Below are positions 4,261 to 51,502 of a DNA stretch of 64,000 bases, piece by piece. The notes beneath the pieces are model-generated. The model was not told the origin of the DNA, ran no database searches, and saw only the letters and a program-made list of their open reading frames with translations. The stretch is taken from NCBI RefSeq assembly GCF_900156255.1, contig NZ_FTMK01000009.1:1-64000 (forward strand). Direction: 5' to 3'. Made by a program: the position numbers and the translations under genes. Every line of letters starts with the position of its first letter. The first letter of the stretch is position 1. Source of the stretch: Paracoccus thiocyanatus. GTDB taxonomy: Bacteria > Pseudomonadota > Alphaproteobacteria > Rhodobacterales > Rhodobacteraceae.

Positions 4261-4288
4261 TGTCACGACCCTCGATTCGATTGGAATT

Positions 4289-11961: not shown

Positions 11962-14667
<2,706 letters not shown>

Positions 14668-14875
14668 ATGAACCTTCAAAATCGCGTATCTGGGGGTGCG
14701 CGGGACGTTCCGCCCACTTGCCGGCACCATTCGCCTTGCCCTATCACTTGGGCCGGAAAAACGGCGACGGGCGCGCATTTTCGGTTGCGCCGGATGTAGG
14801 CCCCGGCCGCCCCACTGTCAACGCTTGCGCCCGTTCGCCCCTGCGTGAACGCGCCGTCCCATGAAGGGGAACATC

Positions 14876-15715
14876 ATGCTGAAACCGCTTTTCGCCGCCT
14901 CGGCCCTGCTTTCGGGGGCCGTCCTGGGCTTGCCGGTGCTGGCGCAGGATGCCGACACGGTCGTCGCCACCGTCAATGACGAGTCGATCACCCTGGGCCA
15001 GATGATCGCCATGCGGCAAGGGCTGGACGCGCATTCGACCCAAGGGCTGCCGGATACGGCGCTGTGGGACCTGATGCTGGACCAGATGATCCGCCAGACC
15101 GCCGTAGCCCAGGCGGCCCAGCCGCTGAGCCAGCGCGACAGCGTGGCGCTGGAACTGGAAAAGCGCGCCTATCTGGCCGGGTCGGTGCTGGAAAAGATCG
15201 CCGAGACCGAGCCGAGCGAGGCCGAACTGAAAGCCGCCTATGACCAGGCTTTCGCCGGCCAGGCCGAACCGGCCATCGAATACAGCGCCGCCCATATCCT
15301 GGTAAAGACCAAGGAAGAAGCCGACGCGATCGCAAAGCAGCTTGCCGATGGCGCCGATTTCGGCGCGCTGGCCGAAGAAAAATCGACCGACAATTCCGGC
15401 CCGAACAAGGGCGATCTGGGATGGTTCCAGCCCGAGCAGATGGTCGCGCCCTTTGCCGAAGCGGTGAAGGCGCTGGAAAAGGGCCAGGTTTCCCAGCCGG
15501 TGGAAACCCAGTTCGGCTGGCATGTCATCAAGCTGAACGACACGCGCGAGGTGACGCCCCCCGCCTTTGACGAGATCAAGGAGCAACTGGCCGTGCAGGT
15601 TCGCCGCGACAAGGTGCAGGCCGAGATCGAAAAGCGCGTGGCCGACGCCAAGATCGAAAAGACCGAGGGGCTTGCCCCCGACCTGCTGAACAAGACCGAC
15701 CTTCTGGGGAAGTGA
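14876..15715 (+). CDS. Periplasmic parvulin-type peptidyl-prolyl isomerase
   Basis: A 279-residue PpiC/SurA-like folding helper. It has a signal peptide (1-22, ending GLPVLAQD), a SurA-like N-terminal region and one parvulin (rotamase) domain at ~135-230 (AAHILVKTKEEADAIAKQL, DLGWFQPEQMV, TQFGWHVIKLND). ATG 14876 was chosen because AAGGGGAA lies 6-13 bases before it, inside a possible upstream start at 14861. Only 3 bases separate it from argJ, so they form an operon. Divergent from secA, which fits a secretion-related role. Confidence 0.9.
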   Translation: MLKPLFAASALLSGAVLGLPVLAQDADTVVATVNDESITLGQMIAMRQGLDAHSTQGLPDTALWDLMLDQMIRQTAVAQAAQPLSQRDSVALELEKRAYLAGSVLEKIAETEPSEAELKAAYDQAFAGQAEPAIEYSAAHILVKTKEEADAIAKQLADGADFGALAEEKSTDNSGPNKGDLGWFQPEQMVAPFAEAVKALEKGQVSQPVETQFGWHVIKLNDTREVTPPAFDEIKEQLAVQVRRDKVQAEIEKRVADAKIEKTEGLAPDLLNKTDLLGK

Positions 15716-15718
15716 GCG

Positions 15719-17116
15719 ATGGCCAAGACCGAAGGCAAGAAATCCCGGCTTTCTGATGCCGAGAAGCTGAAGGCGCTGAAGAAGAAGCTGAAAAAGCTGA
15801 AGGCGGCGTTCAAGGAAACCGCCGCCAGCCTTGAATCGCGCGCGGGGGCGGCGGTGGCGGCCGCGGCAAAGCCCAAGAACGCCGTCTCGCCGCTGGCGCC
15901 GGCGCGCTTTCCCGACCTGCCGGTGATCGAGGGGGCCGAGTTCGCCTCGGGCGCGGCGGGGGTGAAATACCAGGGCCGCACCGATGTCATGCTGGTCAGG
16001 CTGGCGCCGGGCACGGCCGTGGCCGGCGCCTTTACCCGGTCGTCGACCCGCGCGGCCTGTGTGCTGGATTGCCAGGCCAAGCTGGCGCTGGACCAGGATG
16101 CAAGCCAGGGCGCGGCGATCATCGTGAACTCGGGCAATGCCAATGCCTTTACCGGCCGGAACGGGCAAGAGGCGGTGGATGCCGTGACCGGCGGCGTCGC
16201 GGGCGCCCTGGGCGTCCCGCGCGAGCGAGTGTTCTCGTCCTCGACCGGGGTGATCGGCGAGCCGCTGCCGGCCGAGCGTATCACCGCGGTCATCGGCGAT
16301 CTTGCCGCCAGCCTGGACGCGGGCGGCGCGGCCGGGGCGGCGCGGGCGATCATGACCACCGACACGTTCCCCAAAGGTGCGGCGGCCAGTTTCGATGGCG
16401 ATGGCGGCACCATCAATATCGTCGGCATCGCCAAGGGTTCGGGCATGATCGCGCCCGACATGGCGACGATGCTGGTCTATGTCTTTACGGATGCGCAAAT
16501 TGCGCCCGCCCTGCTTCAGCGCATGCTGTCGGCGCGGCTGGACCAGACCTTCAACGCCATAACCGTGGACAGCGACACCTCGACCTCGGACGCGCTGATC
16601 CTGGCGGCGACCGGAAAATCCGCGGCGGCGCCGATCACCGACCTGCGCTCGGCCCCGGCGCGGGCCTTTGGCAAGGCGCTGTCGCAGGTCATGCTGGATC
16701 TGGCGCAGCAGGTGGTCAAGGATGGCGAGGGCGCGACGAAATTCATCGAGGTGCAGGTGACGGGTGCCGCCAGCGACGCCGACGCCCATCGCGTCGCCAT
16801 GGCCATCGCCAATTCGCCGCTGGTCAAGACCGCCGTGGCCGGCGAGGATGCGAATTGGGGCCGCGTGGTGATGGCCGTCGGCAAGTCCGGCGCCCAGGCC
16901 GACCGCGACCGGCTGACCATCCGCTTCGGCGACATGGTGCTGGCCCAGAACGGCTGGCGCGCGCCCGATTACGACGAGGCGCAGGCCAGCGCCTATATGA
17001 AGCGCGACCATCTGGTCATCGGCGTCGACCTGGGGCTGGGCAAGGGCAGGCGCACCGTCTGGACCTGCGACCTGACGCATGGCTATATCGACATCAACGC
17101 CGATTACCGCTCATGA
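15719..17116 (+). CDS. argJ: Bifunctional ornithine acetyltransferase/N-acetylglutamate synthase ArgJ with a lysine-rich head
   Basis: Recycles the acetyl group in arginine synthesis and can make N-acetylglutamate. It has 465 residues, about 50 more than usual. The canonical enzyme starts near residue 55 (VSPLAPARFPDLPVIEG). The self-cleavage site is visible: KGSGMIAPDMATMLV, where cleavage before the threonine makes the nucleophile of the beta chain. The extra head (residues 4-54) is strongly basic and helical (LKALKKKLKKLKAAFKETA) and ends in an Ala-rich linker. The start at 15719 is forced by tight spacing after the parvulin gene (3 bases); no internal ATG lies just before the core. Overlaps mutT by 4 bases. 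Confidence 0.92.
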   Translation: MAKTEGKKSRLSDAEKLKALKKKLKKLKAAFKETAASLESRAGAAVAAAAKPKNAVSPLAPARFPDLPVIEGAEFASGAAGVKYQGRTDVMLVRLAPGTAVAGAFTRSSTRAACVLDCQAKLALDQDASQGAAIIVNSGNANAFTGRNGQEAVDAVTGGVAGALGVPRERVFSSSTGVIGEPLPAERITAVIGDLAASLDAGGAAGAARAIMTTDTFPKGAAASFDGDGGTINIVGIAKGSGMIAPDMATMLVYVFTDAQIAPALLQRMLSARLDQTFNAITVDSDTSTSDALILAATGKSAAAPITDLRSAPARAFGKALSQVMLDLAQQVVKDGEGATKFIEVQVTGAASDADAHRVAMAIANSPLVKTAVAGEDANWGRVVMAVGKSGAQADRDRLTIRFGDMVLAQNGWRAPDYDEAQASAYMKRDHLVIGVDLGLGKGRRTVWTCDLTHGYIDINADYRS

Positions 17117-17511
17117 GGATGGTGCTGGTGGCGGCCGTTGCGCTGATCGACGCGGACGGCCGCGTGCTGCTGGCACAGCGCCCCCAGGGCAAGTCCCTGG
17201 CCGGGCTGTGGGAGTTTCCGGGCGGCAAGGTCGAGCCGGGCGAAACCCCCGAGGCGGCGCTGATCCGCGAATTGCACGAGGAACTGGGCATCGAGACCTG
17301 GGGGTCCTGTCTTGCGCCGCTGACCTTTGCCAGCCACGCCTATGACGACTTCCACCTGCTGATGCCGCTTTTCGCCTGTCGACGCTGGCAGGGCGTGCCG
17401 ATGCCGCAGGAAGGCCAGCAACTGGCCTGGGCGCGGCCGCAGGAGTTGGGCAGGTTCCCCATGCCTCCGGCCGACCTGCCGCTGATCCCCATCCTGCGCG
17501 ACTGGCTATGA
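17113..17511 (+). CDS. mutT: 8-oxo-dGTP diphosphatase MutT
   Basis: Nudix hydrolase that cleans 8-oxo-dGTP from the nucleotide pool and so prevents A-to-C transversions. It has 132 residues; the Nudix box GGKVEPGETPEAALIRELHEELGI is complete (positions ~38-61). The phrase LLAQRPQGKSLAGLWEFPGG is typical of MutT proper rather than other Nudix enzymes. The ATG overlaps the argJ stop (ATGA), giving translational coupling. The argJ-mutT order next to secA is common in Rhodobacterales. Confidence 0.92.
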   Translation: MRMVLVAAVALIDADGRVLLAQRPQGKSLAGLWEFPGGKVEPGETPEAALIRELHEELGIETWGSCLAPLTFASHAYDDFHLLMPLFACRRWQGVPMPQEGQQLAWARPQELGRFPMPPADLPLIPILRDWL

Positions 17512-17535
17512 GACATATGCGCCACGCTGCCGCGA

Positions 17536-17541
17536 TATAAT
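17536..17541 (+). promoter_or_regulatory. Candidate -10 box before the 42-codon gene
   Basis: An exact TATAAT lies 88 bases before the small ORF at 17630. No good -35 box is visible 17 bases upstream, so the site is weak evidence alone. The leader between it and the ATG is unusually AT-rich and contains an inverted pair TGCCGCG/CGCGGCA around it (17529-17535, 17558-17564). Confidence 0.3.
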
Positions 17542-17629
17542 CAGCATTTCGTCCGAAGCGCGGCATTGAGCAATAAACATTTAACAATTTTGTGACAATT
17601 CTGAACTCCTGTAGAGGAGGAGATCGGAC

Positions 17630-17758
17630 ATGATTCGCACGATCACGATCGGCAGCTGCATTTCCGTCCAAGGCATCTTTGAACGGCAGCAGGCGAACGG
17701 GAACATCGTGGTCCGAGTGGGCAGCAAGACCTATGAGGGCAAGCCTGTCATGGCCTGA
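17630..17758 (+). CDS. Small 42-residue protein, unknown function
   Basis: A short gene with one of the strongest ribosome binding sites in the window (GAGGAGGAG, 7-15 bases before ATG). It is preceded by an AT-rich leader and followed 25 bases later by a good terminator. The product is MIRTITIGSCISVQGIFERQ followed by 22 residues ending VGSKTYEGKPVMA. It looks like a single small beta-barrel-like fold with alternating hydrophobic residues, with no signal peptide or membrane helix. The own promoter region, strong RBS and terminator argue for a real, well-expressed gene. I do not recognise the family. Confidence 0.7.
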   Translation: MIRTITIGSCISVQGIFERQQANGNIVVRVGSKTYEGKPVMA

Positions 17759-17783
17759 TGCCGCAGAAATGCGCCACGAAAAC

Positions 17784-17816
17784 GGAGCGGGGTCCGGGAT
17801 GGGCCCCGTTCCTTTT
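17784..17816 (+). terminator. Rho-independent terminator of the 42-codon gene
   Basis: A 12-base-pair stem (17784-17795 with 17801-17812, two G-T pairs) around a GGGAT loop is followed by TTTT. It lies 25 bases after the small gene's stop. Confidence 0.85.
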
Positions 17817-17831
17817 GGCAGCCATGCCGGG

Positions 17832-17867
17832 GCGCCTCCGGCGGGAGTATTTTCGGAAACGGTGAAA
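17832..17867 (+). repeat. Intergenic repeat, copy 3
   Basis: GCGCCTCCGGCGGGAG is followed by TATTTTCGGAAACGGTGAAA. This single-arm copy shows both halves of the family: the GC-rich CCTCCGGCGGG half and the GTATTT..GGAAACGGTGAA half. It lies between two convergent terminators (17784-17816 and 17917-17942). Confidence 0.65.
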
Positions 17868-17916
17868 TCGCGGGGTTTGCGGTGCCTGGACGCGCATCGG
17901 TGCCGCGGGATAGGGA

Positions 17917-17942
17917 AAGGGCGGACCCGCAGGCCCGCCCTT
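17917..17942 (-). terminator. Terminator of the rimP-nusA-ylxR-infB operon
   Basis: AAGGGCGG and CCGCCCTT (17917-17924, 17935-17942) pair perfectly. On the minus strand the stem is followed by TCCCTATCC. It lies 18 bases past the infB stop. The T-run is poor, so termination may be partial. Confidence 0.6.
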
Positions 17943-17959
17943 GCTTATTCGTCGCGAGG

Positions 17960-20503
17960 TTACAGCTGGCGCTGCACTTCCTCGCGTTCGAAGATCTCGA
18001 TGACGTCGCCCTTGCGGATGTCTTCGTAGTTTTCAAAGGCCATGCCGCATTCCTGGCCGGACTGCACTTCCTTGACCTCGTCCTTGAAGCGCTTGAGCGT
18101 CTTGAGCGTGCCTTCGTGGATCACCACGTTGTCGCGCAGCAGACGGACGCCGGCGGAACGCCGCGCCACGCCCTCGGTCACCAGGCAGCCGGCGACATTG
18201 CCGACGCCCGAGACGCGGAAGACTTCCTTGATCTCGGCATAGCCGATGAAGTTCTCGCGCACCTCGGCGGAAAGCAGGCCCGAGGCCGCCGCCTTGATGT
18301 CGTCCACCAGGTCGTAGATGATCGAGTAATAGCGGATCTCGACCCCCTTCTGGTTGGCGGCGTTCCGGGCCGGGGCATTGGCCCGGACGTTGAAGCCCAG
18401 GACCGGCGCCTGCGACGCCTCGGCCAGGCCGACATCCGATTCGGTGATCGCGCCCACGCCGTAATGCAGCACGCGGACCCGCACCTCTTCGTTGCCGATC
18501 TTTTCTAGCGCCTGGACGATGGCCTCGGCCGAGCCTTGCACGTCGGCCTTGATGACCACCGGCAGTTCGGCGACGCTTTCGTCGGCCTTGGCCTTGGCCA
18601 GCATCTGGTCCAGCGTGATCGCGGCACCGGCGGCGGCGCGCTTGTCCTTGGCGGCCTGGATGCGGTAATCGGCGATCTCGCGCGCCTGGGCCTCGGTCGC
18701 GACGACGTTCAGCACGTCGCCCGCCTCGGGCGTGCCGTTCAGGCCCAGCACCTCGACCGGGACCGAGGGGCCGGCCACGTCGATGCGATCGCCGCGGTCG
18801 TTGATCAATGCGCGGACCTTGCCCCATTGTTCGCCGACGACGAAGATGTCGCCGCGCTTCAGCGCGCCGTTCTGCACCAGGACGGTGGCGACCGGGCCGC
18901 GGCCGACATCCAGCTTGGCCTCGATCACCGCGCCCTGGGCGGGGCGGTCGGGATTGGCCTTGAGCTCCAGGATCTCGGCTTGCAGGGCGATGGCTTCCAG
19001 AAGGTTGTCCAGCCCCTTGCCGGTCTTGGCCGAGACTTCGACGTCCTGCACCTCGCCCGACATGGCCTCGACGACCACCTCGTGCTGCAACAGGTCGGTG
19101 CGGACCTTTTGCGGGTTCGCATCCGGCTTGTCGACCTTGTTGATCGCCACGATCATCGGCACCTTGGCGGCCTTGGCGTGGTTGATCGCCTCGACCGTCT
19201 GCGGCATGACCGCGTCATCGGCGGCGACCACCAGCACGACGATATCCGTCACCTGCGCGCCGCGGGCCCGCATCGAGGTGAAGGCGGCGTGGCCGGGCGT
19301 GTCGAGGAAGGTCAAGAGCGCCCCGTTCGCCGCCTTCACCTGATAGGCGCCGATATGCTGGGTGATGCCGCCGGCCTCGCCCGAGACGACATTGGCGTGG
19401 CGGATCGCGTCCAGAAGCGAGGTCTTGCCGTGGTCCACATGGCCCATGATGGTGATGATCGGCGCGCGCGGCTTCAGATCCTCGGCCTTGTCCTCGACCT
19501 GGTCGATGACCTGTTCCACGTCGGCATCCGAAACCCGGACGGCGCGGTGGCCGAATTCGTCGATCACCAGTTCGGCGGTATCGGCATCGACCGCCTGGTT
19601 GGCGGTGACCATCATGCCCATGCGCATCAGCGACTTGATGACATCGGGCGTGCGCTCGGCCATGCGGTTCGCCAGTTCGGACACCAGGATGGTTTCGGGA
19701 AGCTGCACGTCGCGCACCTGCTTTTCGGCGCGCTGGTGGCCGCCCATGGCCTTTTGCCGGGCCTTTTCCTGCTTGCGCTTCATCGCGGCCAGGCTGCGCT
19801 GGCGACCGCCTTCGCCGGCCAGCGCCTGGCTTAGCGACAGCTTGCCAGTGCGACGGTTGTCGTCGCGGTTCTTGGCGCGGCTGTCGCGGTCGTCGGCGCC
19901 GCCGCGGGTGTCGCGGTCGCGATCGGTCTTGCGCGGGCCGGCAGCGGTGACGCCCTTGGTCTCGGCGCGTGCGGCGGCCGCCTCGGCCGCGGCGCGGTCG
20001 GCGGGGGTCGCGGGACGTGCATCGGCCTTGGGCTTGGCGATCTCGGCCTTTTTCTTTTCACGCAGCTCGGCTTCGCGGGCGCGGCGCTCGTCCTCTTCGG
20101 CCTTCAGCCGCAGGGCTTCTTCGCGCTCGCGTTCTTCGCGCTCCTTGGCCTCGGCTTCCTGCCGGCGGCGCTCGCGTTCTTCCTCGCGGGCCTTTTCATC
20201 GGCGGCGCGCTGCGCGGTCTCTTCGACCTCGCGGGCCTTGGCGGCCTTCAGCGCGGCCAGGCGACGCTCCATCTCGGCATCCGAGATGCCGGCGGGGCGC
20301 TTCGACGGGTCGCCCGACACGGCCGAGGGCGAGCCCGAGCGCCCGCCGCCAGCCGACGCCCCGGCCTTGCCGGGCACGACCACGCGCTTGCGCTTGGTCT
20401 CGACGACCACGTTATGGGTCCGGCCGTGGCTGAAGCTTTGCTTCACATGGCCCGAACGGCCGCCACCAAGACCCAGGGGTTTCTTTCCGTCAGTATCGCT
20501 CAT
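17960..20503 (-). CDS. infB: Translation initiation factor IF-2
   Basis: GTPase that brings initiator fMet-tRNA to the 30S subunit. It has 847 residues. The N-terminal ~330 residues are a highly charged Lys/Arg/Glu-rich region, including an IF2-associated domain ([12 protein letters not shown]). The G domain starts near 345 with [17 protein letters not shown] and NKVDKP, followed by the beta-barrels and the fMet-tRNA-binding C-terminal domain. Start ATG 20503 ([20 protein letters not shown]) has GAAGGA upstream; an ATG at 20545 is unlikely because it would overlap ylxR. Last gene of the operon. Confidence 0.97.
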
Positions 20504-41241: not shown

Positions 41242-42018
41242 TCAGCCCGCCGCGTGTTCGCCGTCGATCATCACCATGATGCGCCCGCGCGAACAGCGTT
41301 CCACCCGCGCTTCGACGCCATAGACCTGGGCCAGCAGTTGCGGGGTCAGCACCTGTTCGGGCGCGCCTTCGGCATGGGTATGGCCGCCATGGATCAGCAC
41401 GATGCGGTCGGCCCATTGCGCCGCCAGCGCCAGGTCGTGCAGCACGGCGACGACGATGCGCCCCTCGCCCGCCAGGCGGCGCAGTTCGGAAAGCAGCCGC
41501 ACCTGGCGCGCCAGGTCCAGCGCGCTGGTCGGCTCGTCCAGAAGCAGCAGGCGGGGGTCGCGCACGATGGCCTGCGCCAGGCTGACCATTTGCCGCTGCC
41601 CGCCCGACAGCGCCGACAAGGGCTCCAGCGCCAGCGCGCCGATGCCCAGCTTGTCCAGGACCGCCATGGCGGCGGCATCGGCTTGGCGCGCGCCCAGCGT
41701 GTCGCCCGCGCGCAGCGCCGCGATTACGCTTTCCAGCGCCACCAGGGACGAGCCTGACGGCAGGCTTTGCGGCATAAAGCCGATCAGCCGGGCGCGGTCG
41801 CGCATCGGCACATGCGCCAGGTCGCGCCCGTCCAGCAGCACCTGCCCGCCATGGGGCTGCAACTGGGCGATGGCGCGCAGCAGCGTGGATTTCCCCGCGG
41901 CGTTCGGCCCGGCCAGCACCGTGACCTCGCCCGGCCGCAGCAGGGGCAGGTCCAGGCCCGCAAGCACGCTGCGCGCGCCGTAGCGCACCGAGATGCCCTG
42001 TGCCAGCAGCCCCTGCAT
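41242..42018 (-). CDS. Iron-complex ABC importer, ATPase (FecE/FhuC type)
   Basis: A 258-residue cytoplasmic ATPase. It has Walker A LAGPNAAGKST near 34, signature LSGGQRQMVSLAQAI near 135 and Walker B LLLLDEPTSALD near 155, and it ends with the H-loop in VVAVLHDLALAA. The pattern is that of siderophore, heme or cobalamin importers. ATG 42018 overlaps the permease stop (ATGA). Last gene of the minus-strand importer operon. Confidence 0.9.
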   Translation of the reverse strand: MQGLLAQGISVRYGARSVLAGLDLPLLRPGEVTVLAGPNAAGKSTLLRAIAQLQPHGGQVLLDGRDLAHVPMRDRARLIGFMPQSLPSGSSLVALESVIAALRAGDTLGARQADAAAMAVLDKLGIGALALEPLSALSGGQRQMVSLAQAIVRDPRLLLLDEPTSALDLARQVRLLSELRRLAGEGRIVVAVLHDLALAAQWADRIVLIHGGHTHAEGAPEQVLTPQLLAQVYGVEARVERCSRGRIMVMIDGEHAAG

Positions 42019-43052
42019 CAGCGCCGCCTGCCGCGCAGGATCAGCGCGAAAAAGATCGGCAGCCCGATCAGCGAGGTGACAAGGCCCACCGGCAGCAGCA
42101 CCCCCGGCACCAGCGTCTTCGACAGCGTCGAGGCCAGCGACATGACCAGCGCCCCGGTCAGGATGCTGGCGGGCAAAAAGACGCGGTGGTTTTCACCGAC
42201 CAGCATCCGGGCGATATGCGGCCCGGCCAGCCCGACGAAGCCGATGACGCCGACCATGGACACGGCCGAGGCGGCCAGCAGGCTGACCCGCAGCAGCGTC
42301 CAGCGGCGCAGGCCGGCCACATCGACGCCGAAGCTTTTCGCCTGGTCCTCGCCCAGCCGCAGGGCGGTCAGTTTCCACGCCGCGCGAAAGGAAAACGGCA
42401 CCGTCGCCGCCAGCACCACGCCGATCATCACCACGCCCGGCCATTGCGCCGCGGCAAGGCTGCCCATGGTCCAGAACACCAGTTGTTGCAGCGCATCGGC
42501 CGAAGCGACGAATTGCAGCAAGGACAGCAGCGCGGCGGCGGTAAAGTTCAGCGCCACGCCGAACAGGATCAGCACCTCGGGGCCGCCGCCGCGGATGCGG
42601 CCCAGCAGTTGCAAAAGCCCCAGCGCACCCAGCGCGAACAGGAAGGCATTGCCCGAGACGCCCCAGACCGGCGGCAGGCCGGGCAGGGTCAGGCCCAGCA
42701 CGATGGCCACCGCGGCGCCAAGCGCGGCGGATGACGACACGCCCAGCGTGAAGGGTTCCGCCAGCGGGTTTTCCAGCACCGTCTGCATCTCGGCCCCCGC
42801 CAGCGCCAGCGCCGCGCCGACCAATAGCGCCATGCAGGCCACGGGCAGCCGCACGTCCCAGACGATGACCTGTGTGCCGCGGGCCACCTCGGCCCCGGTC
42901 AGGGCGCGCAGCGTTTCGGCCAGGGGCAGGCCGGCCGGGCCGGTGACCAGGTCCAGCAGCAGCGCCGCCAGCGCGGCAAGCCCCAGCACCGCCACCAGCA
43001 GGGTATTGCGCCGGCCTTGCCGGTGATAGCGTTGCAGGGTCGCGTCGCTCAT
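42018..43052 (-). CDS. Iron-complex ABC importer, permease (FecCD family)
   Basis: A 344-residue inner-membrane permease with about ten hydrophobic helices. FecCD-type phrases include ALAGAEMQTVLENPLAEPFTLGVSSSAALGAA near 80-110 and GFVGLAGPHIARMLVG near 270 (coupling-helix region). ATG 43052 overlaps the binding-protein stop (ATGA). Works as a homodimer with the ATPase encoded next. Substrate is likely a ferric siderophore, judged from the neighbouring synthetase and esterase. Confidence 0.92.
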   Translation of the reverse strand: MSDATLQRYHRQGRRNTLLVAVLGLAALAALLLDLVTGPAGLPLAETLRALTGAEVARGTQVIVWDVRLPVACMALLVGAALALAGAEMQTVLENPLAEPFTLGVSSSAALGAAVAIVLGLTLPGLPPVWGVSGNAFLFALGALGLLQLLGRIRGGGPEVLILFGVALNFTAAALLSLLQFVASADALQQLVFWTMGSLAAAQWPGVVMIGVVLAATVPFSFRAAWKLTALRLGEDQAKSFGVDVAGLRRWTLLRVSLLAASAVSMVGVIGFVGLAGPHIARMLVGENHRVFLPASILTGALVMSLASTLSKTLVPGVLLPVGLVTSLIGLPIFFALILRGRRR

Positions 43053-44146
43053 TGTTCCGGCGTCACCCACCAGGTTCCCGGCACCACCACGGGCGAGAAG
43101 CGGGCGTTGATCTCGGCCAGGGTCTTGGCGGGGTCGACGTCCTGGAACAGGTCGGGATGAAAGGTCTTGGCCAGGTATTCGATCAGCGCGATATGCACGG
43201 GCGAATCGTTGAACAGGTGCCAGACGCCGGCCGCGCGCCCCTGTTCCACCGCCCGCAACGAGGCAAAGCCGGGCGCCGAAAGCAGCCGCTGAAAGCTGGC
43301 CTGAGCGGTTTCGGCGTCGACGCCCGAACCCAGCACCAGCCCGCCCCGCGTCGCCATATGCGTGCCGCCGGTGGCGATATAGACGTCCGGGTCGGCGCCG
43401 ATCAGATATTCCAGGCTGACATTGCCCAACACGCCCTTGACGGTGTCATGGCCGATGTTTTGCCCGCCCGCCGTGGTGATGAAATCGTCGAATACCCCGG
43501 TCCCCACGGTCGAGCAGCAGTTCTGTCCCGCGGCATGGACGTGGAAGAATACGCGCGGCCTTGGCGGCTTGGCGCCGGCCAGGCGGTCGCGGATGCGGGC
43601 AAGCCGGGTGTCGTAGAACTCGGCGAATTCCTCGGCGCGCTCTTCGGCGCCGGTCAGCGTGCCCAGGATGCGCAGGCTGGGGATCGAGTTTTCCCGCGGA
43701 TGCGAAAAGAAATCGACATAGGCGACCGGGATGCCCGCCGCCTCGATCTGTTGGCGGGCGACCTCCATGCCGGGGTCGTTCTGGTCCATCAGCGTCAGCA
43801 CCACCAGGTCGGGATGCAGCGCGATGATCGCCTCGGCAGAAATGTCGCGATTGCCCGAGCCGACGGGGCGGATCGCGTCGATATCGGGGAATTTCTCGCG
43901 GTAAGCCTGCATGGTCGGCTGATCCAGCGCCTTGTCCAGCCGCCAGCCCGAAACCAGCGCCACCGGGTCGTCGTGGATCAGCCCCAGGACCGACAGGTGC
44001 CGCCCCTCGCCCAGCACGATATGGCGGGCGGGTTCGGGCAGGTGGATTTCCCGCCCCAGGATATCGGTGGCCGTCACATCCGCCGCGGCAGCGCCAAGCG
44101 AGGCGATCAGGGCAAGGGCGGCTAGCAGCGGGCGGGTCAGGGTCAT
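43049..44146 (-). CDS. Periplasmic iron-complex binding protein (FecB/FepB type)
   Basis: A 365-residue class III solute-binding protein. It has a signal peptide (1-22, ending LGAAAADV) and two lobes joined by a helix. Family landmarks are TDILGREIHLPEPARHIVLGEG near 25 and EAIIALHPDLVVL near 105. Catches the ferric chelate for the FecCD/FecE pair. There is 67 bases between it and the beta-propeller gene upstream, so all four are probably one operon. Confidence 0.9.
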   Translation of the reverse strand: MTLTRPLLAALALIASLGAAAADVTATDILGREIHLPEPARHIVLGEGRHLSVLGLIHDDPVALVSGWRLDKALDQPTMQAYREKFPDIDAIRPVGSGNRDISAEAIIALHPDLVVLTLMDQNDPGMEVARQQIEAAGIPVAYVDFFSHPRENSIPSLRILGTLTGAEERAEEFAEFYDTRLARIRDRLAGAKPPRPRVFFHVHAAGQNCCSTVGTGVFDDFITTAGGQNIGHDTVKGVLGNVSLEYLIGADPDVYIATGGTHMATRGGLVLGSGVDAETAQASFQRLLSAPGFASLRAVEQGRAAGVWHLFNDSPVHIALIEYLAKTFHPDLFQDVDPAKTLAEINARFSPVVVPGTWWVTPEQ

Positions 44147-44213: not shown

Positions 44214-45620
44214 TTACTGCGTGGCGGGGGTGATGCGCCAGATGCGGTCGCCCGCCTCGTCGTTTTCGCCGCGCGACTTGTTGACCGCCCAGACATTGCC
44301 CTTGCCGTCGGCGCGCAACTGGTTGGGCAGGCTGCCGGCGTCCAGGTTCGCGACGATCTCGCCCTGGAGGCTGACCACGGTGATGGTGCCGGCGCCGCGA
44401 TTGGCGACATAGGCCAGCCGCCCCACCGGCTCGAAGGCGACGTTCAGCGGGCCGGCGCCGACGGCGACGTCATGCAGGACTTCGCCGGTCTCGGCCTTGA
44501 CGATCAGCAGGTTGTCGGTGGCCTGCGAGGCGACGAAGATCAGCCCCTCCTGCGGGTCGTAGGCCACGCCCGAGGCGGCCTTGGCGCCCGGCAGCGCGAT
44601 CACCCTGACCTCGCCCGAGGCCAGGTCCACCACCGCCGCTTCGGGCGTGGACAGGCTGACCGTGACCAGCTTGCCGCCCGCCTCGTCGATGTCCAGCGCC
44701 ATGGTCGAGAATTCCTCGCCCCGGATCTGCGACTGGATGGTGATCGGCTCCAGGGGCTCCAGCGTCTTGGTGTCGAAGACCCGGATCTCGGGCGTGCCGG
44801 TGGCGCTGGCATAGGCGCGGCCATTGGCCTCATCGACCACCACGTCGCGGGCATGGGGGACGGCGCCCGGCTCGAACTGCTTGACCAGCGACAGGTCGGA
44901 TTGCTTGTAGACCGCGGCCGTGTCCTGCCGGGTGTTCGTCACCCAGACATTGCCGTTCGCCTCGTCCACATCGACGCCATAGACGGCGATCAACCCGCCA
45001 TCGCTGCCGTCGGGACGGGCGGGGGCGGCGCCGGGGATAACCTCGGCCTCGATCTTCAGCGTCTCGCCGTTGATCTTGACCAGCTTGGATTCCTTGACCG
45101 GCGGGCGGCCCACGGCGCTGGTGACGAAGGCGGCATTCGCCCCCTCGCTGAACTTGACCTGGTAAAGGCCGCGCACCACGGGTTCACTGGTCACGCTGAA
45201 CTTGTCGGCCCCCGCGACGGCGATCTCGGGCGAGATCTTCAGTTCGACCACATCGGCCGAGGCCGGATTTTCGGTGATGACCGCGATGGGCTGCAAGCCG
45301 GTCTCGGCCTCGGCGTCGATGTCCAGCGCAAAGCTGAACTTGCCATCGGCATCCACGGTAATCGGCTCGGCGTTCAGCGCCGTGGCGCCGCGCATCAGCG
45401 TGACGGTCTGGCCGGGGATCAGGTTCTCGCCCGCGATCACCGCCTTGCCGCCCTTGTGGACCGGGCTGCGGTCGGGCCCGCCGGCACTGACGCGGCCGGC
45501 GAAATCAACGAGCGGCTTGGTAAAGACGGTGTCGGCCAGCGCCGGGCCCGAAACCAGCGCCAGGGCCAGCGCCGAAGCGCCCAGCAGGCTGCGCAGCGAA
45601 GGGCGCGATGGATATGCCAT
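44214..45620 (-). CDS. Secreted YncE-like beta-propeller protein
   Basis: A 468-residue exported protein. It has a signal peptide (1-29, ending GPALAD), an N-terminal Ig-like region (~30-140), then a seven-bladed YncE/PQQ-type propeller (~150-460) with recurring phrases such as GVDVDEANGNVWVTNTRQ, YASATGTPEIRVFD and VGRLAYVANRGAGTITVV. E. coli YncE lies beside a TonB receptor and responds to iron. Here the gene heads the iron-importer operon, so a role in iron handling is inferred. AAGGAG lies 5 bases before ATG. Confidence 0.82.
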   Translation of the reverse strand: MAYPSRPSLRSLLGASALALALVSGPALADTVFTKPLVDFAGRVSAGGPDRSPVHKGGKAVIAGENLIPGQTVTLMRGATALNAEPITVDADGKFSFALDIDAEAETGLQPIAVITENPASADVVELKISPEIAVAGADKFSVTSEPVVRGLYQVKFSEGANAAFVTSAVGRPPVKESKLVKINGETLKIEAEVIPGAAPARPDGSDGGLIAVYGVDVDEANGNVWVTNTRQDTAAVYKQSDLSLVKQFEPGAVPHARDVVVDEANGRAYASATGTPEIRVFDTKTLEPLEPITIQSQIRGEEFSTMALDIDEAGGKLVTVSLSTPEAAVVDLASGEVRVIALPGAKAASGVAYDPQEGLIFVASQATDNLLIVKAETGEVLHDVAVGAGPLNVAFEPVGRLAYVANRGAGTITVVSLQGEIVANLDAGSLPNQLRADGKGNVWAVNKSRGENDEAGDRIWRITPATQ

Positions 45621-45705: not shown

Positions 45706-45720
45706 TGACCGTCCTTGTCA
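45706..45720. promoter_or_regulatory. Candidate iron-responsive (IRO-like) box in the divergent promoter
   Basis: TGA, nine bases, TCA (TGACCGTCCTTGTCA) matches the pattern proposed for RirA boxes in alphaproteobacteria. It is centred in the 148-base region between the beta-propeller/importer operon (minus) and the siderophore esterase (plus), where a shared iron switch is expected. The motif is short, so chance is possible. Confidence 0.4.
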
Positions 45721-45768
45721 ACTAATCTCGGCAGGGGAACAGGAGTTTGTGAGCAGGAGAGTTTGCCT

Positions 45769-46605
45769 ATGATGTCGCAGCTTGGACGCGTCGGGCCGGA
45801 ACATGCCAGGAAACAGGCCGAATTGCGCATCTTCCAGGACGGGTCCGCAACCCATGCGCTGTCCCAAAAGGTGGTGGCGGTCGGCCCCGGCTATCGGCTG
45901 TTCCTGGCCGTGCCCAAGGCGCCCCCGCCTGCCGGGGGCTGGCCGGTGCTTTACATGCTGGACGGCAATGCCGCCTTCGATTTCCTGACGGCCGAGCATC
46001 TGGCGCTGGCGCCGGGGCTGGTGGTGGCCGGCATCGGATATGACACCGACCGGCAATTCGCCCGCGAACTGCGCACGCTGGACTTTACCGCGCCCGACGG
46101 GCCGGGCGACGGCCTGCGTCCCGACCATGTCCACGAAGGCCGCACGGCCGGGGGTGCGGCGATCTTTCACGACCGGCTGACCGGCCCGCTGCGCGACGCG
46201 GCCGAGGCCGGCCTGCCCATCGACGCGACCCGCCGCACGCTTTGGGGCCACAGTTTCGGCGGGCTGTTCACGCTTTACGCGCTGCTGGCGCGGCCGCATG
46301 GCTTCGCCCGCCATGCCGCGATCAGCCCCTCGATCTGGTGGGACGAGGCGCTGATCCGCCGCGTGGCCCAGGCGGCCGCGCCGGCCTCGCTGCCGCTGCT
46401 GGTGGCGCTGGGGGACCGCGAAAAGCGCTCGGGCAGCGACGGGCCGCCGCCGGACGGGCCGGCGCCGGCGACGATGCAGCTTGTCGCGGATCTTGCCCGC
46501 CATCCCGGCCATCGCGCACAGGTCCATGTCCTGCCCGGCCATATCCATATCCAGACGCTGGCGGGATCGTTCCCGCTGGTTCTGCCTTTCGCCAGCGCGG
46601 ATTAA
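45769..46605 (+). CDS. Alpha/beta hydrolase, siderophore-esterase type (IroE/Fes-like)
   Basis: A 278-residue member of the putative-esterase family. The nucleophile serine is in LWGHSFGGLFTLYA near 165; GWPVLYMLDGNAAFDF near 50 and LPGHIHIQTLAG near 255 (catalytic histidine) complete the fold. Members such as IroE and Fes cut ester siderophores to free iron or linearise them. No secretion signal is visible, so it probably acts in the cytoplasm. AGGAGA lies 8 bases before ATG 45769 (45772 is also possible). Shares its promoter region with the importer operon. Confidence 0.82.
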   Translation: MMSQLGRVGPEHARKQAELRIFQDGSATHALSQKVVAVGPGYRLFLAVPKAPPPAGGWPVLYMLDGNAAFDFLTAEHLALAPGLVVAGIGYDTDRQFARELRTLDFTAPDGPGDGLRPDHVHEGRTAGGAAIFHDRLTGPLRDAAEAGLPIDATRRTLWGHSFGGLFTLYALLARPHGFARHAAISPSIWWDEALIRRVAQAAAPASLPLLVALGDREKRSGSDGPPPDGPAPATMQLVADLARHPGHRAQVHVLPGHIHIQTLAGSFPLVLPFASAD

Positions 46606-46659: not shown

Positions 46660-46998
46660 ATGGTTTTCGCCAGATATGCGCTGGTCCTGATCGGGCTGGT
46701 CCTGTGCGGGCTGGGCGTCGCGCAGGTGCCGCAAGGGGTGCCGGGCCTGTCGCCGCCGCCCGCCGGTCCCGTGCCGGCGCATGACGCCTTGCTGGCCTTG
46801 GGCGGGCTGGCCGGGGGACTGGTTTGCGGTCTTGTCGCGCTGGCTTTGGCCGGCCCTGCGCCCCCACCGATTCGCGTGCCGGCGGGCGGGACAGGCGGGC
46901 CGGTCAGTTCCGGCCCAGCCGCGCCGCCAATGCCGGCGCGATCAACGCCGAGGCTTCTTCCGAGGTCATCTGCGCATGCAGGAATGGCAGGTCGATGA
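46660..46998 (+). CDS. Small two-helix membrane protein, overlaps the synthetase 3' end
   Basis: A 112-residue frame with AAAGGGG 6-12 bases before ATG. Two hydrophobic helices (ARYALVLIGLVLCGLGVAQV, ~5-24, and ALLALGGLAGGLVCGLVALALAG, ~42-64) are joined by a Pro-rich loop, followed by a Pro/Ala-rich tail. The last 95 bases overlap the opposite-strand synthetase gene, so the tail may be a by-product of the frame staying open. Follows the esterase by 54 bases. Unknown function; membrane location inferred. Confidence 0.5.
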   Translation: MVFARYALVLIGLVLCGLGVAQVPQGVPGLSPPPAGPVPAHDALLALGGLAGGLVCGLVALALAGPAPPPIRVPAGGTGGPVSSGPAAPPMPARSTPRLLPRSSAHAGMAGR

Positions 46999-49900
46999 CC
47001 TCCAGCCCTGCGGCATAGGGGGCCCACATCCCCGGCCGCAGGTCGCGGTCCTTGTGGTCGCGGGCGGCGCGGAAATGCGTGATCGTGCCGGCAAAGCGGC
47101 GGTGATGGTGGCTGCGGATCAGCCGGTTGGTGCCGGTGACGGTGCGCACCACCCCGTCCAGGACCCGCGCCGGCAGCGCCCCCAATGCGCTTTCCCCGCG
47201 CCGGAGGAAGGCCACGACCTTTTCGCGGCTGTCCAGGTCGCGATGCGCCTCGGGGTCGTAGCCGGCGATGGCCAGCAGCGCGCGCAGCGCCGCGGCGGGG
47301 TCCGGTTCGGGCTCGTCGCGCCAGGCATCGCTGGGATAGCTGTCCAGCATGGCGACCACCCCGGCCTTGCGGCCGGCCGCGGCCAGGATCACCGCGATTT
47401 CCTGCGCCAGGATGCCGCCGACCGACCAGCCGGCCAGGTGCACCGGACCCTGCGGCGCCAGTGCGGCGATGCGCCCGGCATAGTCCTGCGCCAGCGCGGC
47501 CAGGCTTTCCGGCATCGGCACGCTGGGATCCAGTCCCGGATGTTGCAGCCCCCAGACCCGCCGCTGGGGCGCGATCCGCCGCGCCAGCCCGCGATAGCCC
47601 CAGGCCAGGCCGCCTGCCGGATGGATCAGGAACAGCGGCGCGGCCTGGCCGTCGCCGTCGGCCAGCAGGATCAGCGGTCCCAGCCCGTCGTCATGGGGCG
47701 CCTGAGCGTCCAGCGCCGCCGCCAGTGCCGCCAGCACCGGCTGTTCGAAAATGGTGCCCAGGCCGGGGTCGCGGCCGGTCTCGGCCTCCAGCGCCTGGGC
47801 CAGCCGCACGGCGGACAGCGAATCGCCCCCCAGGGCAAAGAAATCCGCCTCGGCCGGGGCCGGCTGGGGCAGGTGCAGGATCAGCGCGTAAAGCCGGGCC
47901 AGCAATTGCTCGGTCGGCGTTTCCGCCGCGCGGCCCGAGGCGGCGAATTCCGGCGCGGGCAGCGCCTTGCGGTCCAGCTTGCCGTTCGACGTGACCGGCA
48001 GCGCCTTCAGCGCCACCTCGGCCGAGGGCAGCATATAGGCGGGCAGCCCGGCCGCCAGCCGTTCCGCCAGCAGCCCCGGCCGCCAGTCCGCCGCCGGCAC
48101 CAGATAGGCGACCAGGCGCTTTTCGCCGGCATGATCCTCGCGCGCGACGACCACGCATTCGCGCGCCATGCCGGTGGCCATGATCGCCGCCTCGATCTCG
48201 CCCAGCTCGACCCGCAGCCCGCGGATCTTGACCTGGTGGTCCGAACGGCCCAGATAGACCACCGCCCCGTCCGGCCGCAGCCGCGCCAGGTCGCCGGTGG
48301 CGTAAAGCCGGCCCTGGGGGGCGTCGATGAAGCGTTCCGCCGTCAGGTCCGCCCGGCCCAGATAGCCGCGCGCCAGTTGCACGCCGCCCAGATACAGGTG
48401 CCCGGCCAGGCCCGGTGGCACCGGGCGCATGCGGTCGTCCAGCACCTCCAGCGCCGTGTTCCAGACCGGCCAGCCGATCGGGATCGGGTTGGCGCGATCC
48501 TCGGGTCCGGCGGGCCAGTAGCTGACATCCACCGCCGCCTCGGTCGGGCCGTAAAGGTTGTGCAGTTCGGCCGTGATCCGGGCGTGGAAGCGGTCGCGCT
48601 GGTCCGCCGTCAACTCCTCGCCCGAGCAGAACACCCGGCGCATCGCCAGCCCCTGCGAGACGGGCGAGGCCAGAAAGGCCGACAGCATCGACGGCACGAA
48701 ATGACAGGTGGTGACGGCGCGGTCGCGGATCAGGCGGGCGATGGCGGCGGGGTCGCGATGCGCGCCGGGCGGCGCCATGACCAGTTCCGCCCCGGCCATC
48801 ATCGGCAGGAAGAATTCCCAGACCGAGACGTCGAAGGTCGCCGGGGTCTTTTGCAGGATGCGGTCCTGGGCCGCGATGCCGTAATGCGCCTGCATCCACA
48901 TCAGGCGGTTGACGATGGCGCGATGTTCGACGGCGACGCCCTTGGGCTCTCCGGTCGAGCCCGAGGTGAAGATGACATAGGCCAGGTCGCCCGGCTGCGG
49001 CCCCCCCGCGGGGCGACCCCCGGCCGGCCAGTCGGCGGGCAGCAGCAGGTCGGTGCCCAAAGGGCACAGCCCCGCCAGGTCGGCCGTGGTCAGCACCGCC
49101 ACCGGCCGGGCCTGCGCCAGGATGCGGGCGATGCGTTCGGGCGGATGCGCCGGGTCCAAGGGCAGATAGGCCGCGCCGGCGCGCAGGATCGCCAGCAGCG
49201 CCACGGGCAGTTCCAGCGAGCGTTCCAGCGCCACGGCGACGATGCGGTCGGGGCCGGCGCCAAGCTTTTGCAGCCGTGCGGCCAGCGCGGCGCTGCGGCG
49301 GTCAAGATCGGCGAAGCTCAGCCTGTCCGCGCCAAAGCTGACCGCCGGCGCATCGGGCGTGGCGGCAAGCTGCGCCTCGATCAGCGCGGTCAGGGTGGTG
49401 TCGGGCAGGGGATGGCGCGTCGCCTGGGCGCGCGCCTGCGCAGCGGCGATTTCGGCCGGGCTGGCGGTCGGCACCTCGGCCAGGGTTTCGGCCGCAAGTG
49501 CCGCGATCAGAAAGGCCACCAGCCGGTCGCCATGTCCGCGCACCTCTTCGGGCGCATAAAGCGCGGGGTTCGCGTCCACCTCGAAGATCATCCCCGAGGC
49601 GGGATCGCCGCGGAAGGTCAGCGTCAGGTCATCGACCGCGCCCGCCCCCAGGATATGCAGCCGGGCTTGCAGCCCCGGAAATTCCGGTGCCTTATCAAAG
49701 GGCTGAACGTTCACCAGCGGACCGTAAAGCCGCCGCGTGCCGCCGACCAGACCCAGTTCGCGGCGCAAAAGCTCGCTGCGGTAAAGGCCGCGGCGGCGGC
49801 CCTGCGCCATGCGCCTGGACTGCGCGGCCAGCCATTCGGGCAGGGCTGCGTCCTCGTCCAGCCGCAGCCGGTGCGGCAGCACGTTCATCGCCATGCAGGG

Positions 49901-50761
49901 CACCTGCGCGATCTTGCGGCCCATCCGCGCCATGAAGGGCAGGCCGATCACCGCCTCGCCCCCGGTCCAGCGCGCCAGATAGGCGCCGGTCAGCGCGTTC
50001 AGCACGTCGGGCCAGCCCAGCCGGTGCCGGGCGGCATAGCCGGCCAGCCGGTCCAGCAAAGCCTGCGGCAGCAGGCGCGTGTCGCGCAGGAAATCGGCGC
50101 CGCTGACCGCGCGGCCCTGCGCCAGCCCGGCAACCTCGGGCAGGTCGGCCAGTTCGGCCAGCCACCAGTCGCGGTCGGCCCCCCGGCGGGGCGAGGCGCG
50201 CCAGGCCGCGTCCTCTTCGGTCGCCAGCGACAGCGGGCCAAAGCGCTCGGGCGCCGGCGCCCCGCCCACCAGCGCGGCGTAATGCGCGGCGATGCGGTTC
50301 GTCACCAAGACCATGCCATAGCCGTCGATGGCCAGGTGGTGGATGCGTTCGTAAAGCAGATGCCGTTCGGGACCCAGGACGAACAGCGTCAGCGCCCCGG
50401 CCGGGTCCTGGGCCAGGTCCAGCGGGCGCTGGCTGTCGGCGCGCATCTGCGCCAGGGCCTGCGCCTCGGCATCGGGCTGGGCGGACAGGTCGGCAAAGCC
50501 CAGCATCGGCGGCAGGCCGACCCATTGCCGCGGCCCGTCGGGTCCGTGGCCAAAGCGCAGCGACAGGGCCGGGGCTTCGGCGATGGTGCGCGCGACGGCC
50601 TGGGCCAGCGCATCGCGGTCCAGGGGGCCGGTCAGTTCCAGATATTGCCCGGTGTTCAGGATCGGGTTGCCGGGGTCCAGCGCCTGGACATACCACAGCC
50701 CTTCCTGCGCCTCGGTCAGCGGGCAGCCGGCTTGGCACTGAAGATGGTGATGTGTGTCCAT
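46904..50761 (-). CDS. Single-module nonribosomal peptide synthetase, C-A-T-TE, serine-specific (EntF-like)
   Basis: A 1285-residue synthetase. Order: condensation domain (~10-430, HHLAIDG at 141), adenylation (~455-940, core YVIFTSGSTGEPKG near 600), carrier protein (~955-1025, FFALGGDSLSAVRL, phosphopantetheine Ser near 979), thioesterase (~1050-1285, GWSVGG near 1110, MLDSYPSD, HAQMTSEEAS). Pocket residues read from FDVSVW, CHFV, FCSGE, LYGPTEAAVD and NGKLDRKA spell DVWHFSLVDK, the serine code of EntF. The module order also equals EntF, which joins aryl acids to serine and trimerises the product by its thioesterase. No entA, B, C, E or MbtH-like gene is in the window. The nearby importer and esterase point to a siderophore. 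Confidence 0.92.
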   Translation of the reverse strand: MDTHHHLQCQAGCPLTEAQEGLWYVQALDPGNPILNTGQYLELTGPLDRDALAQAVARTIAEAPALSLRFGHGPDGPRQWVGLPPMLGFADLSAQPDAEAQALAQMRADSQRPLDLAQDPAGALTLFVLGPERHLLYERIHHLAIDGYGMVLVTNRIAAHYAALVGGAPAPERFGPLSLATEEDAAWRASPRRGADRDWWLAELADLPEVAGLAQGRAVSGADFLRDTRLLPQALLDRLAGYAARHRLGWPDVLNALTGAYLARWTGGEAVIGLPFMARMGRKIAQVPCMAMNVLPHRLRLDEDAALPEWLAAQSRRMAQGRRRGLYRSELLRRELGLVGGTRRLYGPLVNVQPFDKAPEFPGLQARLHILGAGAVDDLTLTFRGDPASGMIFEVDANPALYAPEEVRGHGDRLVAFLIAALAAETLAEVPTASPAEIAAAQARAQATRHPLPDTTLTALIEAQLAATPDAPAVSFGADRLSFADLDRRSAALAARLQKLGAGPDRIVAVALERSLELPVALLAILRAGAAYLPLDPAHPPERIARILAQARPVAVLTTADLAGLCPLGTDLLLPADWPAGGRPAGGPQPGDLAYVIFTSGSTGEPKGVAVEHRAIVNRLMWMQAHYGIAAQDRILQKTPATFDVSVWEFFLPMMAGAELVMAPPGAHRDPAAIARLIRDRAVTTCHFVPSMLSAFLASPVSQGLAMRRVFCSGEELTADQRDRFHARITAELHNLYGPTEAAVDVSYWPAGPEDRANPIPIGWPVWNTALEVLDDRMRPVPPGLAGHLYLGGVQLARGYLGRADLTAERFIDAPQGRLYATGDLARLRPDGAVVYLGRSDHQVKIRGLRVELGEIEAAIMATGMARECVVVAREDHAGEKRLVAYLVPAADWRPGLLAERLAAGLPAYMLPSAEVALKALPVTSNGKLDRKALPAPEFAASGRAAETPTEQLLARLYALILHLPQPAPAEADFFALGGDSLSAVRLAQALEAETGRDPGLGTIFEQPVLAALAAALDAQAPHDDGLGPLILLADGDGQAAPLFLIHPAGGLAWGYRGLARRIAPQRRVWGLQHPGLDPSVPMPESLAALAQDYAGRIAALAPQGPVHLAGWSVGGILAQEIAVILAAAGRKAGVVAMLDSYPSDAWRDEPEPDPAAALRALLAIAGYDPEAHRDLDSREKVVAFLRRGESALGALPARVLDGVVRTVTGTNRLIRSHHHRRFAGTITHFRAARDHKDRDLRPGMWAPYAAGLEVIDLPFLHAQMTSEEASALIAPALAARLGRN

Positions 50762-50932
50762 GTCAAGCCCGCTCCGGTCGGGGAAAGTGAAATTGCAGCC
50801 GAAGGATAGAACTGACGACCATGTTACCCCAGGGACCGGCTTGCAGGACTTGCCCGACTGCGGCCAAGGCCATACTGTCGCCCAGGAAATTAGTCAACTT
50901 TCTAGCGCAGCCCGGCTGCGTCCGGAGCAGCC

Positions 50933-51502
50933 ATGGCCTTGCAATCCCTGCCTTTGCGCGACACCGAACAGGCCTATGGCCGGGTGTCCCGCCTGCTGCA
51001 TTGGAGCATCGCCGCCCTGATGCTGTGGCAGTTCCTGGGCATGGGTCTGCGGCTGCTGCTGGGCCGCCAGCCGGTGGTTTCCTTTTTCGTGGGTTGGCAC
51101 CAGCCGGTGGGAACGGTGCTGTTCGTGCTGATCGCCCTGCGGCTGGCATGGGCGCTGGCCAATCGCGGCAACCGGCCCGATCACGGCCGCGGGCTGGGCG
51201 GGCTGGCGGCGCGGCTGGGCCATCTGGCGCTGTATCTGGTCATGGCCGCCGTGCCGGTCGCGGCCTTGCTGCGCGCCTATGGCGGCGAGCGGGCCTTTGC
51301 GCCCTTCGGCTTCCAGATTTTCCCGGCGCAGGTGCCGCCGATCGGCTGGATGGTCGGCCTGGGCGATGCGCTGCACGGAGAGATGGCCTGGCTGCTTTTG
51401 CTGCTGATCCTGGGCCATGTCGTCATGGTCGGCGTGCATGAAAGCATGTGGCGCGACGGCACCCTGGCGCGCATGGCCGGGCGGCGCCGGGCGGGCCTTT
51501 AG
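50933..51502 (+). CDS. Cytochrome b561-family protein
   Basis: A 189-residue membrane cytochrome with four hydrophobic helices. Heme-ligand histidines are in VSRLLHWSIAALML (~23), VGWHQPVGTVLFVL (~55), LGHLALYLVM (~100) and LHGEMAWLLLLLILGHVVMVGVHE (~147-170). Moves electrons across or at the inner membrane; the donor and acceptor are unknown. Divergent from the synthetase across 171 bases. In some iron loci a b561 may help ferric reduction, but that is only speculation here. Confidence 0.88.
   Translation: MALQSLPLRDTEQAYGRVSRLLHWSIAALMLWQFLGMGLRLLLGRQPVVSFFVGWHQPVGTVLFVLIALRLAWALANRGNRPDHGRGLGGLAARLGHLALYLVMAAVPVAALLRAYGGERAFAPFGFQIFPAQVPPIGWMVGLGDALHGEMAWLLLLLILGHVVMVGVHESMWRDGTLARMAGRRRAGL

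Follow-up and report, generated by a model that had tools for sequence, protein, structure and literature searches.

The closest described counterpart of the system treated here is that of Paracoccus denitrificans PD1222, which, according to a recent report, makes enterobactin, parabactin and brucebactin and carries an entF homologue distant from its dhb genes (Robes et al., mBio 2026, PMC13251462). Genes for 2,3-dihydroxybenzoate (DHB) that serve two products are likewise already known from Serratia plymuthica V4. That strain makes enterobactin plus serratiochelin; the EntF homologue SchF0 is needed for enterobactin, and other genes of the SchF0 cluster also take part in producing a polyamine catecholate whose assembly involves a VibH homologue (PMC7962358). 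Our subject is the single EntF-like synthetase gene (entF) in a 64,000-nucleotide stretch of Paracoccus thiocyanatus (positions 1 to 64,000 of contig NZ_FTMK01000009.1; hereafter the window). An initial annotation of this DNA had presented the synthetase as an orphan with a serine code and no visible partners, and had left two possibilities: either the aryl genes lie at another locus, or the enzyme accepts some other acyl donor, its product being a serine ester siderophore of a new kind. Our analysis indicates that the synthetase is very probably the EntF of an enterobactin pathway whose genes are distributed over the genome. This proposal is based on genes, domains, residues, synteny and trees computed here and, for enterobactin in P. 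denitrificans, on the literature. What we describe is a known pathway divided between two loci, one more instance of the layout reported for P. denitrificans; among open-licence papers, no other report of this Paracoccus arrangement was recognised.

The predicted product of entF is a 1285-residue protein with an ATG start. Pfam analysis placed a condensation (C) domain at residues 13-423, an AMP-binding adenylation (A) domain at 462-801 with its C-terminal part at 855-928, a carrier (T) domain at 953-1017 and a thioesterase (TE) domain at 1042-1226, which is the C-A-T-TE order of E. coli EntF. Alignment with the EntF of E. coli K-12 (MG1655) demonstrated 40.8% identity over 1225 aligned residues. 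The ten code positions (D644, V645, W648, H687, F711, S713, L736, V744, D745 and K928) are identical to the aligned E. coli residues in 10 of 10 cases, and the HHxxxDG motif of the C domain (H141, H142, D146 and G147), the carrier serine S981 and the TE residues S1113, D1140 and H1262 also agree. These ten positions are taken to be those that form the serine code; the computed part is their identity with the aligned EntF residues. All of these residues are invariant among 15 aligned proteins, namely the window EntF and 14 orthologues of 54-92% identity, and the best solved structure for the protein is EntF itself (5ja1, 727.9 bits). These results confirmed the domain order and the serine code given in the initial annotation. 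The orthologue of P. denitrificans DSM 413 (L126), the strain from which we presume PD1222 to derive, is 91% identical and has the same neighbours. Our comparison with P. denitrificans was made through this orthologue.

To what extent the synthetase stands alone was evaluated in the source genome (3.52 Mb, 62 contigs, 99.92% complete). A search for DHB synthesis genes and an aryl-AMP ligase, as the initial annotation had advised, located them on contig C22, where the only EntE above the curated cut-off (785.5 bits) is accompanied by genes for an aryl carrier protein (ArCP), EntA, an isochorismatase, EntC and a VibH-type amide synthase (Table 1). The genome consequently holds the DHB genes, a DHB-AMP ligase and an aryl carrier, with EntA slightly below its cut-offs. 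The description as an orphan therefore fails, and the suggestion that the aryl genes lie at another locus is supported; the very case named as refuting a new pathway, an enterobactin-type gene set elsewhere in the genome, came true. The case shows that the remainder of a genome should be searched before a solitary siderophore synthetase is taken for a new pathway. In the proposed scheme, chorismate would be converted to DHB through EntC, the stand-alone isochorismatase and EntA, and the EntE of contig C22 would load DHB onto the stand-alone ArCP, which would feed EntF. The EntF C domain would couple DHB to serine carried on EntF's own T domain, and the TE domain would gather three DHB-serine units and close the trilactone, so that enterobactin would be the product of this strain. 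The ABC transporter encoded beside entF may import the ferric complex and the neighbouring esterase may open it.

Table 1. Features of the entF locus (window coordinates) and of the DHB locus (contig C22, L013 coordinates)
Feature	Position	Strand	Basis or remark
ABC ATPase	41242..42018	-	Pfam, NCBIfam
FecCD-type ABC permease	42018..43070	-	Pfam, NCBIfam
Periplasmic binding protein, Peripla_BP_2	43049..44146	-	Nearest NCBIfam model ferrichrome/ferrioxamine B, below cut-off
YncE-like beta-propeller protein	44214..45620	-	NCBIfam; occurs in most relatives compared
Esterase, GHSFGG motif, convergent with entF	45715..46605	+	Nearest solved structures PfeE/IroE/BES
entF, C-A-T-TE synthetase, serine code	46904..50761	-	Open reading frame, Pfam, alignment, structure match
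entF/b561 intergenic region, 171 bp	50762..50932		Site of entE and ArCP gene in sister species
Element AAGTTGACTAATTT upstream of entF	50887..50900	-	Alignment of clade upstream regions
Cytochrome b561-like gene, other locus edge	50933..51502	+	NCBIfam, relatives
VibH-like amide synthase	C22, L013:12179-13666	-	Structure match VibH 1l5a, E 1.7e-60
entE	C22, L013:13717-15336	+	Curated model
Stand-alone aryl carrier protein (ArCP)	C22, L013:15345-15590	+	Carrier domain; best structure match EntB 2fq1
entA	C22, L013: about 15587-16357	-	Slightly below its two cut-offs
Stand-alone isochorismatase	C22, L013:16351-17004	-	Isochorismatase domain
entC	C22, L013:17004-18203	-	Above isochorismate synthase subfamily cut-off

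The system resembles the E. coli enterobactin synthase (EntABCDEF/YbdZ) in domain order, in the ten code residues, in the catalytic residues and in the presence of esterase and ABC transporter genes near entF. It differs in that its genes are split over two loci, in that a stand-alone ArCP and isochorismatase take the place of the fused EntB, in that no MbtH was found whereas E. coli has ybdZ before entF, and in that the phosphopantetheinyl transferase (PPTase) candidates and catecholate-like receptors lie away from the entF locus. Serratia SchF0 lies inside an enterobactin-like cluster (PMC7962358), whereas the window EntF locus has no DHB, EntE or ArCP genes. The likeness to P. denitrificans is closest, since its entF is likewise far from the dhb genes (reported for PD1222 in PMC13251462) and a VibH-type gene stands next to entE in its genome (G026).

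The observation in favour of the second possibility, in which the donor would be non-aryl and the serine ester siderophore new, is that no aryl gene lies within the window. A tblastn search of the window with the genome's own EntA, EntB, EntC and EntE and with E. coli EntA, EntB, EntC, EntE, YbdZ and EntD found no ent partner gene; the only matches were the A domain of the synthetase itself and a 29% match to EntA at 63.6-64.0 kb, which we take for a generic dehydrogenase. Together with genome-wide MbtH and PPTase searches, this bears out the earlier statement that none of these genes lies near the synthetase. The donor itself was approached through a C-domain tree of 32 rows, the analysis by which the initial annotation proposed to separate starter from LCL types. 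EntF and VibH domains fall together (99/99), apart from the C domain of a candidate parabactin nonribosomal peptide synthetase (NRPS) and from that of one other NRPS; the program warned of long branches meeting, the E. coli row included, and EntF as a group was not resolved, so that the proposed placement is only partly achieved. This grouping, the DHB module in the genome with its high-scoring EntE, and the entE-ArCP pair found beside entF in sister loci led us to reject a new siderophore built on another donor, which we regard as extremely improbable. The neighbouring esterase, whose nearest solved structure is a ferric enterobactin esterase, and the enterobactin reported for P. denitrificans (PMC13251462) also speak against it.

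The initial annotation had also set the serine of this enzyme against the threonine and spermidine of parabactin-type Paracoccus siderophores. The contrast is a fair one, spermidine being documented in the literature. However, parabactin, brucebactin and enterobactin occur together in P. denitrificans (PMC13251462). A candidate parabactin NRPS, present in some relatives, was not found in the window genome, nor was any further NRPS of a parabactin pathway; this is the difference from P. denitrificans, where the NRPS on contig C94 of G026 would be the parabactin synthetase. Because this candidate was not found, the predicted products of the strain are enterobactin and a brucebactin-type product, with no parabactin.

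The genome search for condensation domains found just two, those of EntF and VibH, and both enzymes would draw on one DHB module. These points, and the missing parabactin candidate, could be taken to mean that the two cooperate, the EntF TE domain handing DHB-serine to DHB-spermidine and giving one mixed seryl-polyamine siderophore rather than enterobactin. The distribution of the genes across the genus argues otherwise. Among 125 Paracoccus genomes, for which first looks scored at most the best five EntF, 12 VibH and 11 EntE candidates per genome, 45 match EntF at E 1e-100; seven of these were set aside as having only other NRPS matches (no more than 47% identity), leaving 38 with an EntF relative at no less than 53% identity. 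EntE occurs at E 1e-100 in all 38 and, without EntF, in 20 further genomes. VibH proper (at least 43% identity; some matches counted are partial or stop-containing) was detected in 39 genomes, 20 with EntF and 19 without, while 18 EntF genomes lack it. As each of the two genes is found without the other in the genus, it seems that EntF and VibH use a DHB supply separately, and the VibH-type enzyme, at its own locus and with VibH 1l5a as top structure match, would serve a separate product line. In G059, where both loci are on one contig, they are about 1.6 Mb apart. Two genomes of the window's EntF clade, G053 and G033, have no VibH match and yet retain entC, entB, entA, ArCP and entE; this is only suggestive, because C-domain matches of the candidate parabactin NRPS occur in G053 as well, and a different NRPS in G033. 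P. denitrificans, which has both enzymes, makes enterobactin and brucebactin separately (PMC13251462), and the TE domain and esterase suit a lactone. A single hybrid product is thus unlikely, and we give it very little chance. In three other genomes (G121, G046 and G087) entF is partial or stop-containing while a VibH match is present (in pieces in G121); entF may be decaying there, though G087 is only 71% complete.

We allow a still smaller chance that all DHB-serine products released by the enzyme are linear or incomplete, or that its lactone has another size. The ring size is not readable from the TE sequence, and a linear dimer and trimer accompany enterobactin in Kushneria, according to PMC13251462. 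The TE triad is nevertheless invariant in the 15 aligned proteins, and the same source describes the detection of enterobactin in P. denitrificans.

The genes beside entF further agree with a siderophore function, and the claim that the synthetase had no visible partners overlooked them. The adjacent esterase has the ferric enterobactin esterase 6gi0 as its top structure match (E 4.4e-35), followed by IroE (2gzr) and BES (2qm0), and would cleave the enterobactin trilactone. Beyond the yncE-like gene, the interval 41242-44146 (minus strand) encodes an iron-siderophore-type ABC transporter. The esterase adjoins entF in most relatives compared, as does the whole esterase-yncE-transporter block, which does not do so in G004. 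A siderophore locus at the window entF is well supported, while the substrates of transporter and esterase would be those of the proposed pathway.

Several scores weigh against the enterobactin assignment. The synthetase reaches 803.4 bits with the NCBIfam EntF equivalog model, whose cut-off is 2400; in our reading this cut-off fits only close kin of the E. coli protein, because the 91%-identical P. denitrificans protein, from a species reported to make enterobactin, is so near to ours. With the enterochelin esterase model, the esterase attains just 23.9 bits against a cut-off of 222. The binding protein obtains 265.6 of 374 bits with the ferrichrome/ferrioxamine B model and 24.4 of 205 with the enterobactin model, the permease is nearest to BtuC and the ATPase to a haem transporter, so that NCBIfam does not recognise an enterobactin system. 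At the DHB locus, EntA lies just below its cut-offs (297.8 of 312 and 293.4 of 300) and the isochorismatase has no match to any DHB-specific model. Finally, none of the 107 candidates scored in the genome is an MbtH match. Across the genus (at most the best 48 candidates per genome scored), MbtH occurs in 8 of 125 genomes and in none near the EntF orthologue; only G009 and G072 of these have EntF, with MbtH on other contigs, and G026, taken as P. denitrificans, has no MbtH match among the candidates scored. PPTase candidates are present, an Sfp-type on contig C12 and an AcpS on C4, neither being on the entF contig. Four TonB receptors were identified; those on C15 and C12 are nearest to catecholate or related receptors, below all cut-offs, and the others are one B12-like and one haem-like protein, the latter in the window at 2218-4266 (minus strand).

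Comparison with sister species suggests how the arrangement arose. Their gene order is b561, entE, ArCP, entF, esterase, yncE, fecB, fecC and fecE, with entE and ArCP directly before entF and an ArCP in 18 of the 19 loci examined. Annotated plasmids of P. alcaliphilus and Haematobacter massiliensis carry the same genes, the esterase and transport genes being on the other side in the latter. In a 91-row EntF tree (FastTree, local support, no bootstrap), the 15 rows without an adjacent entE, the window included, form one clade with local support of 100 among entE-bearing lineages; over the whole tree the adjacency label needs five changes. In a 50-row EntE tree, 30 rows from EntF clusters lie on one side of a branch with support of 100, and the genome's own EntE belongs to the other lineage, together with EntEs from VibH loci and from related loci that lack VibH. 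Fifteen rows of this tree carry the VibH-locus label, four of them (G053, G033, G060 and G017) having no VibH there, and the EntF-adjacent gene of L201 was entered twice. By this placement the native entE was not relocated, and the EntE that remains belongs to another lineage; no further EntE was found in the genome at E 1e-100.

The same pattern recurs across the genus. Among genus genomes with usable entF, all 19 without an adjacent native entE, ours included, have an EntE of the VibH-locus type (in the 18 others 66-91% identical to our own), and none of the 15 genomes with a native-type EntE (next to entF in 14, some 5 kb from it in one) does. This count omits G020 (broken contig) and G121, G046 and G087 (broken or partial entF), and adjacency in G073, G030, G092, G107 and G093 was judged from match coordinates. 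Against a partner swap it must be held that the pattern comprises only two independent pairs, which give a sign test p of 0.5 and on their own are no proof. In some clade members (e.g. G026, G059 and G075) an additional EntE lies close to the candidate parabactin NRPS. We infer that this Paracoccus clade lost the entE-ArCP pair that preceded entF and that its role passed to the DHB module at the VibH (brucebactin-type) locus, EntF here probably taking DHB from the other pathway's carrier. With moderate confidence we propose that a single ArCP supplies the amide synthase as well as the trilactone synthetase, and does so without MbtH. The evolutionary reading of the lost pair is what is new here, the split itself having already been reported for P. 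denitrificans.

At the positions where E. coli EntB carries Met, Phe and Ala, the genome's ArCP shows the same three residues, which we take to contact EntF, although a literature search gave no confirmation. They are permissive at most, since four of five ArCPs from genomes without EntF carry all three and the ArCP of G060, a genome with EntF, lacks the Phe. If the proposal is true, the clade provides a natural case of carrier-protein partner replacement in an NRPS. The genus offers a comparison set, EntF with its native ArCP against EntF with another pathway's, for how condensation domains accept new carriers, as well as an instance in which the search found no MbtH gene to go with EntF.

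A TRAP substrate-binding gene, 51-86% identical to the L096 query, lies in the flanks of the native entE-ArCP-entF locus in many Rhodobacterales (L096, L100, L103, L104, L110, L135-L138, L141, L143-L145, L147-L149, L151, L152, L165, L172 and L223, some being the same genome twice). Among 65 named loci with native-type entE, 15 have TRAP without a local entB, 36 a local entB without TRAP, 14 neither and none both. Eight of the 15 genomes with native-type entE and entF (G004, G024, G032, G042, G062, G070, G090 and G093) gave no isochorismatase match at E 1e-40, entA and entC not having been searched there. One idea is that the TRAP gene serves aryl acid import. Two genomes with the TRAP gene, G030 and G099, speak against this, as they have an entB elsewhere, and the division between TRAP loci and local-entB loci may be due to kinship alone.

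Upstream of entF, AAGTTGACTA is present in 13 of 14 aligned regions of the window's Paracoccus clade (group A), and the pattern RTTGACTAAWT has a single exact occurrence in the genome. A role in iron control is a guess. The element was unmatched in a 20 kb stretch of the dhb locus with up to three mismatches allowed, which counts against the proposed distributed pathway and led us to reject an iron box common to both loci. A Fur box is quoted in PMC9409073, and an Iron-Rhodo-box is named in PMC4618611.

Contig C12 also encodes a second, uncharacterised assembly line (L015:7654-12267 and 13253-18985, both on the minus strand), in which the Sfp-type PPTase candidate and a polyketide synthase stand next to a 1537-residue NRPS protein. 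The adenylation domain of this NRPS protein apparently contains an inserted luciferase-like monooxygenase of the MupA/Atu3671 family.

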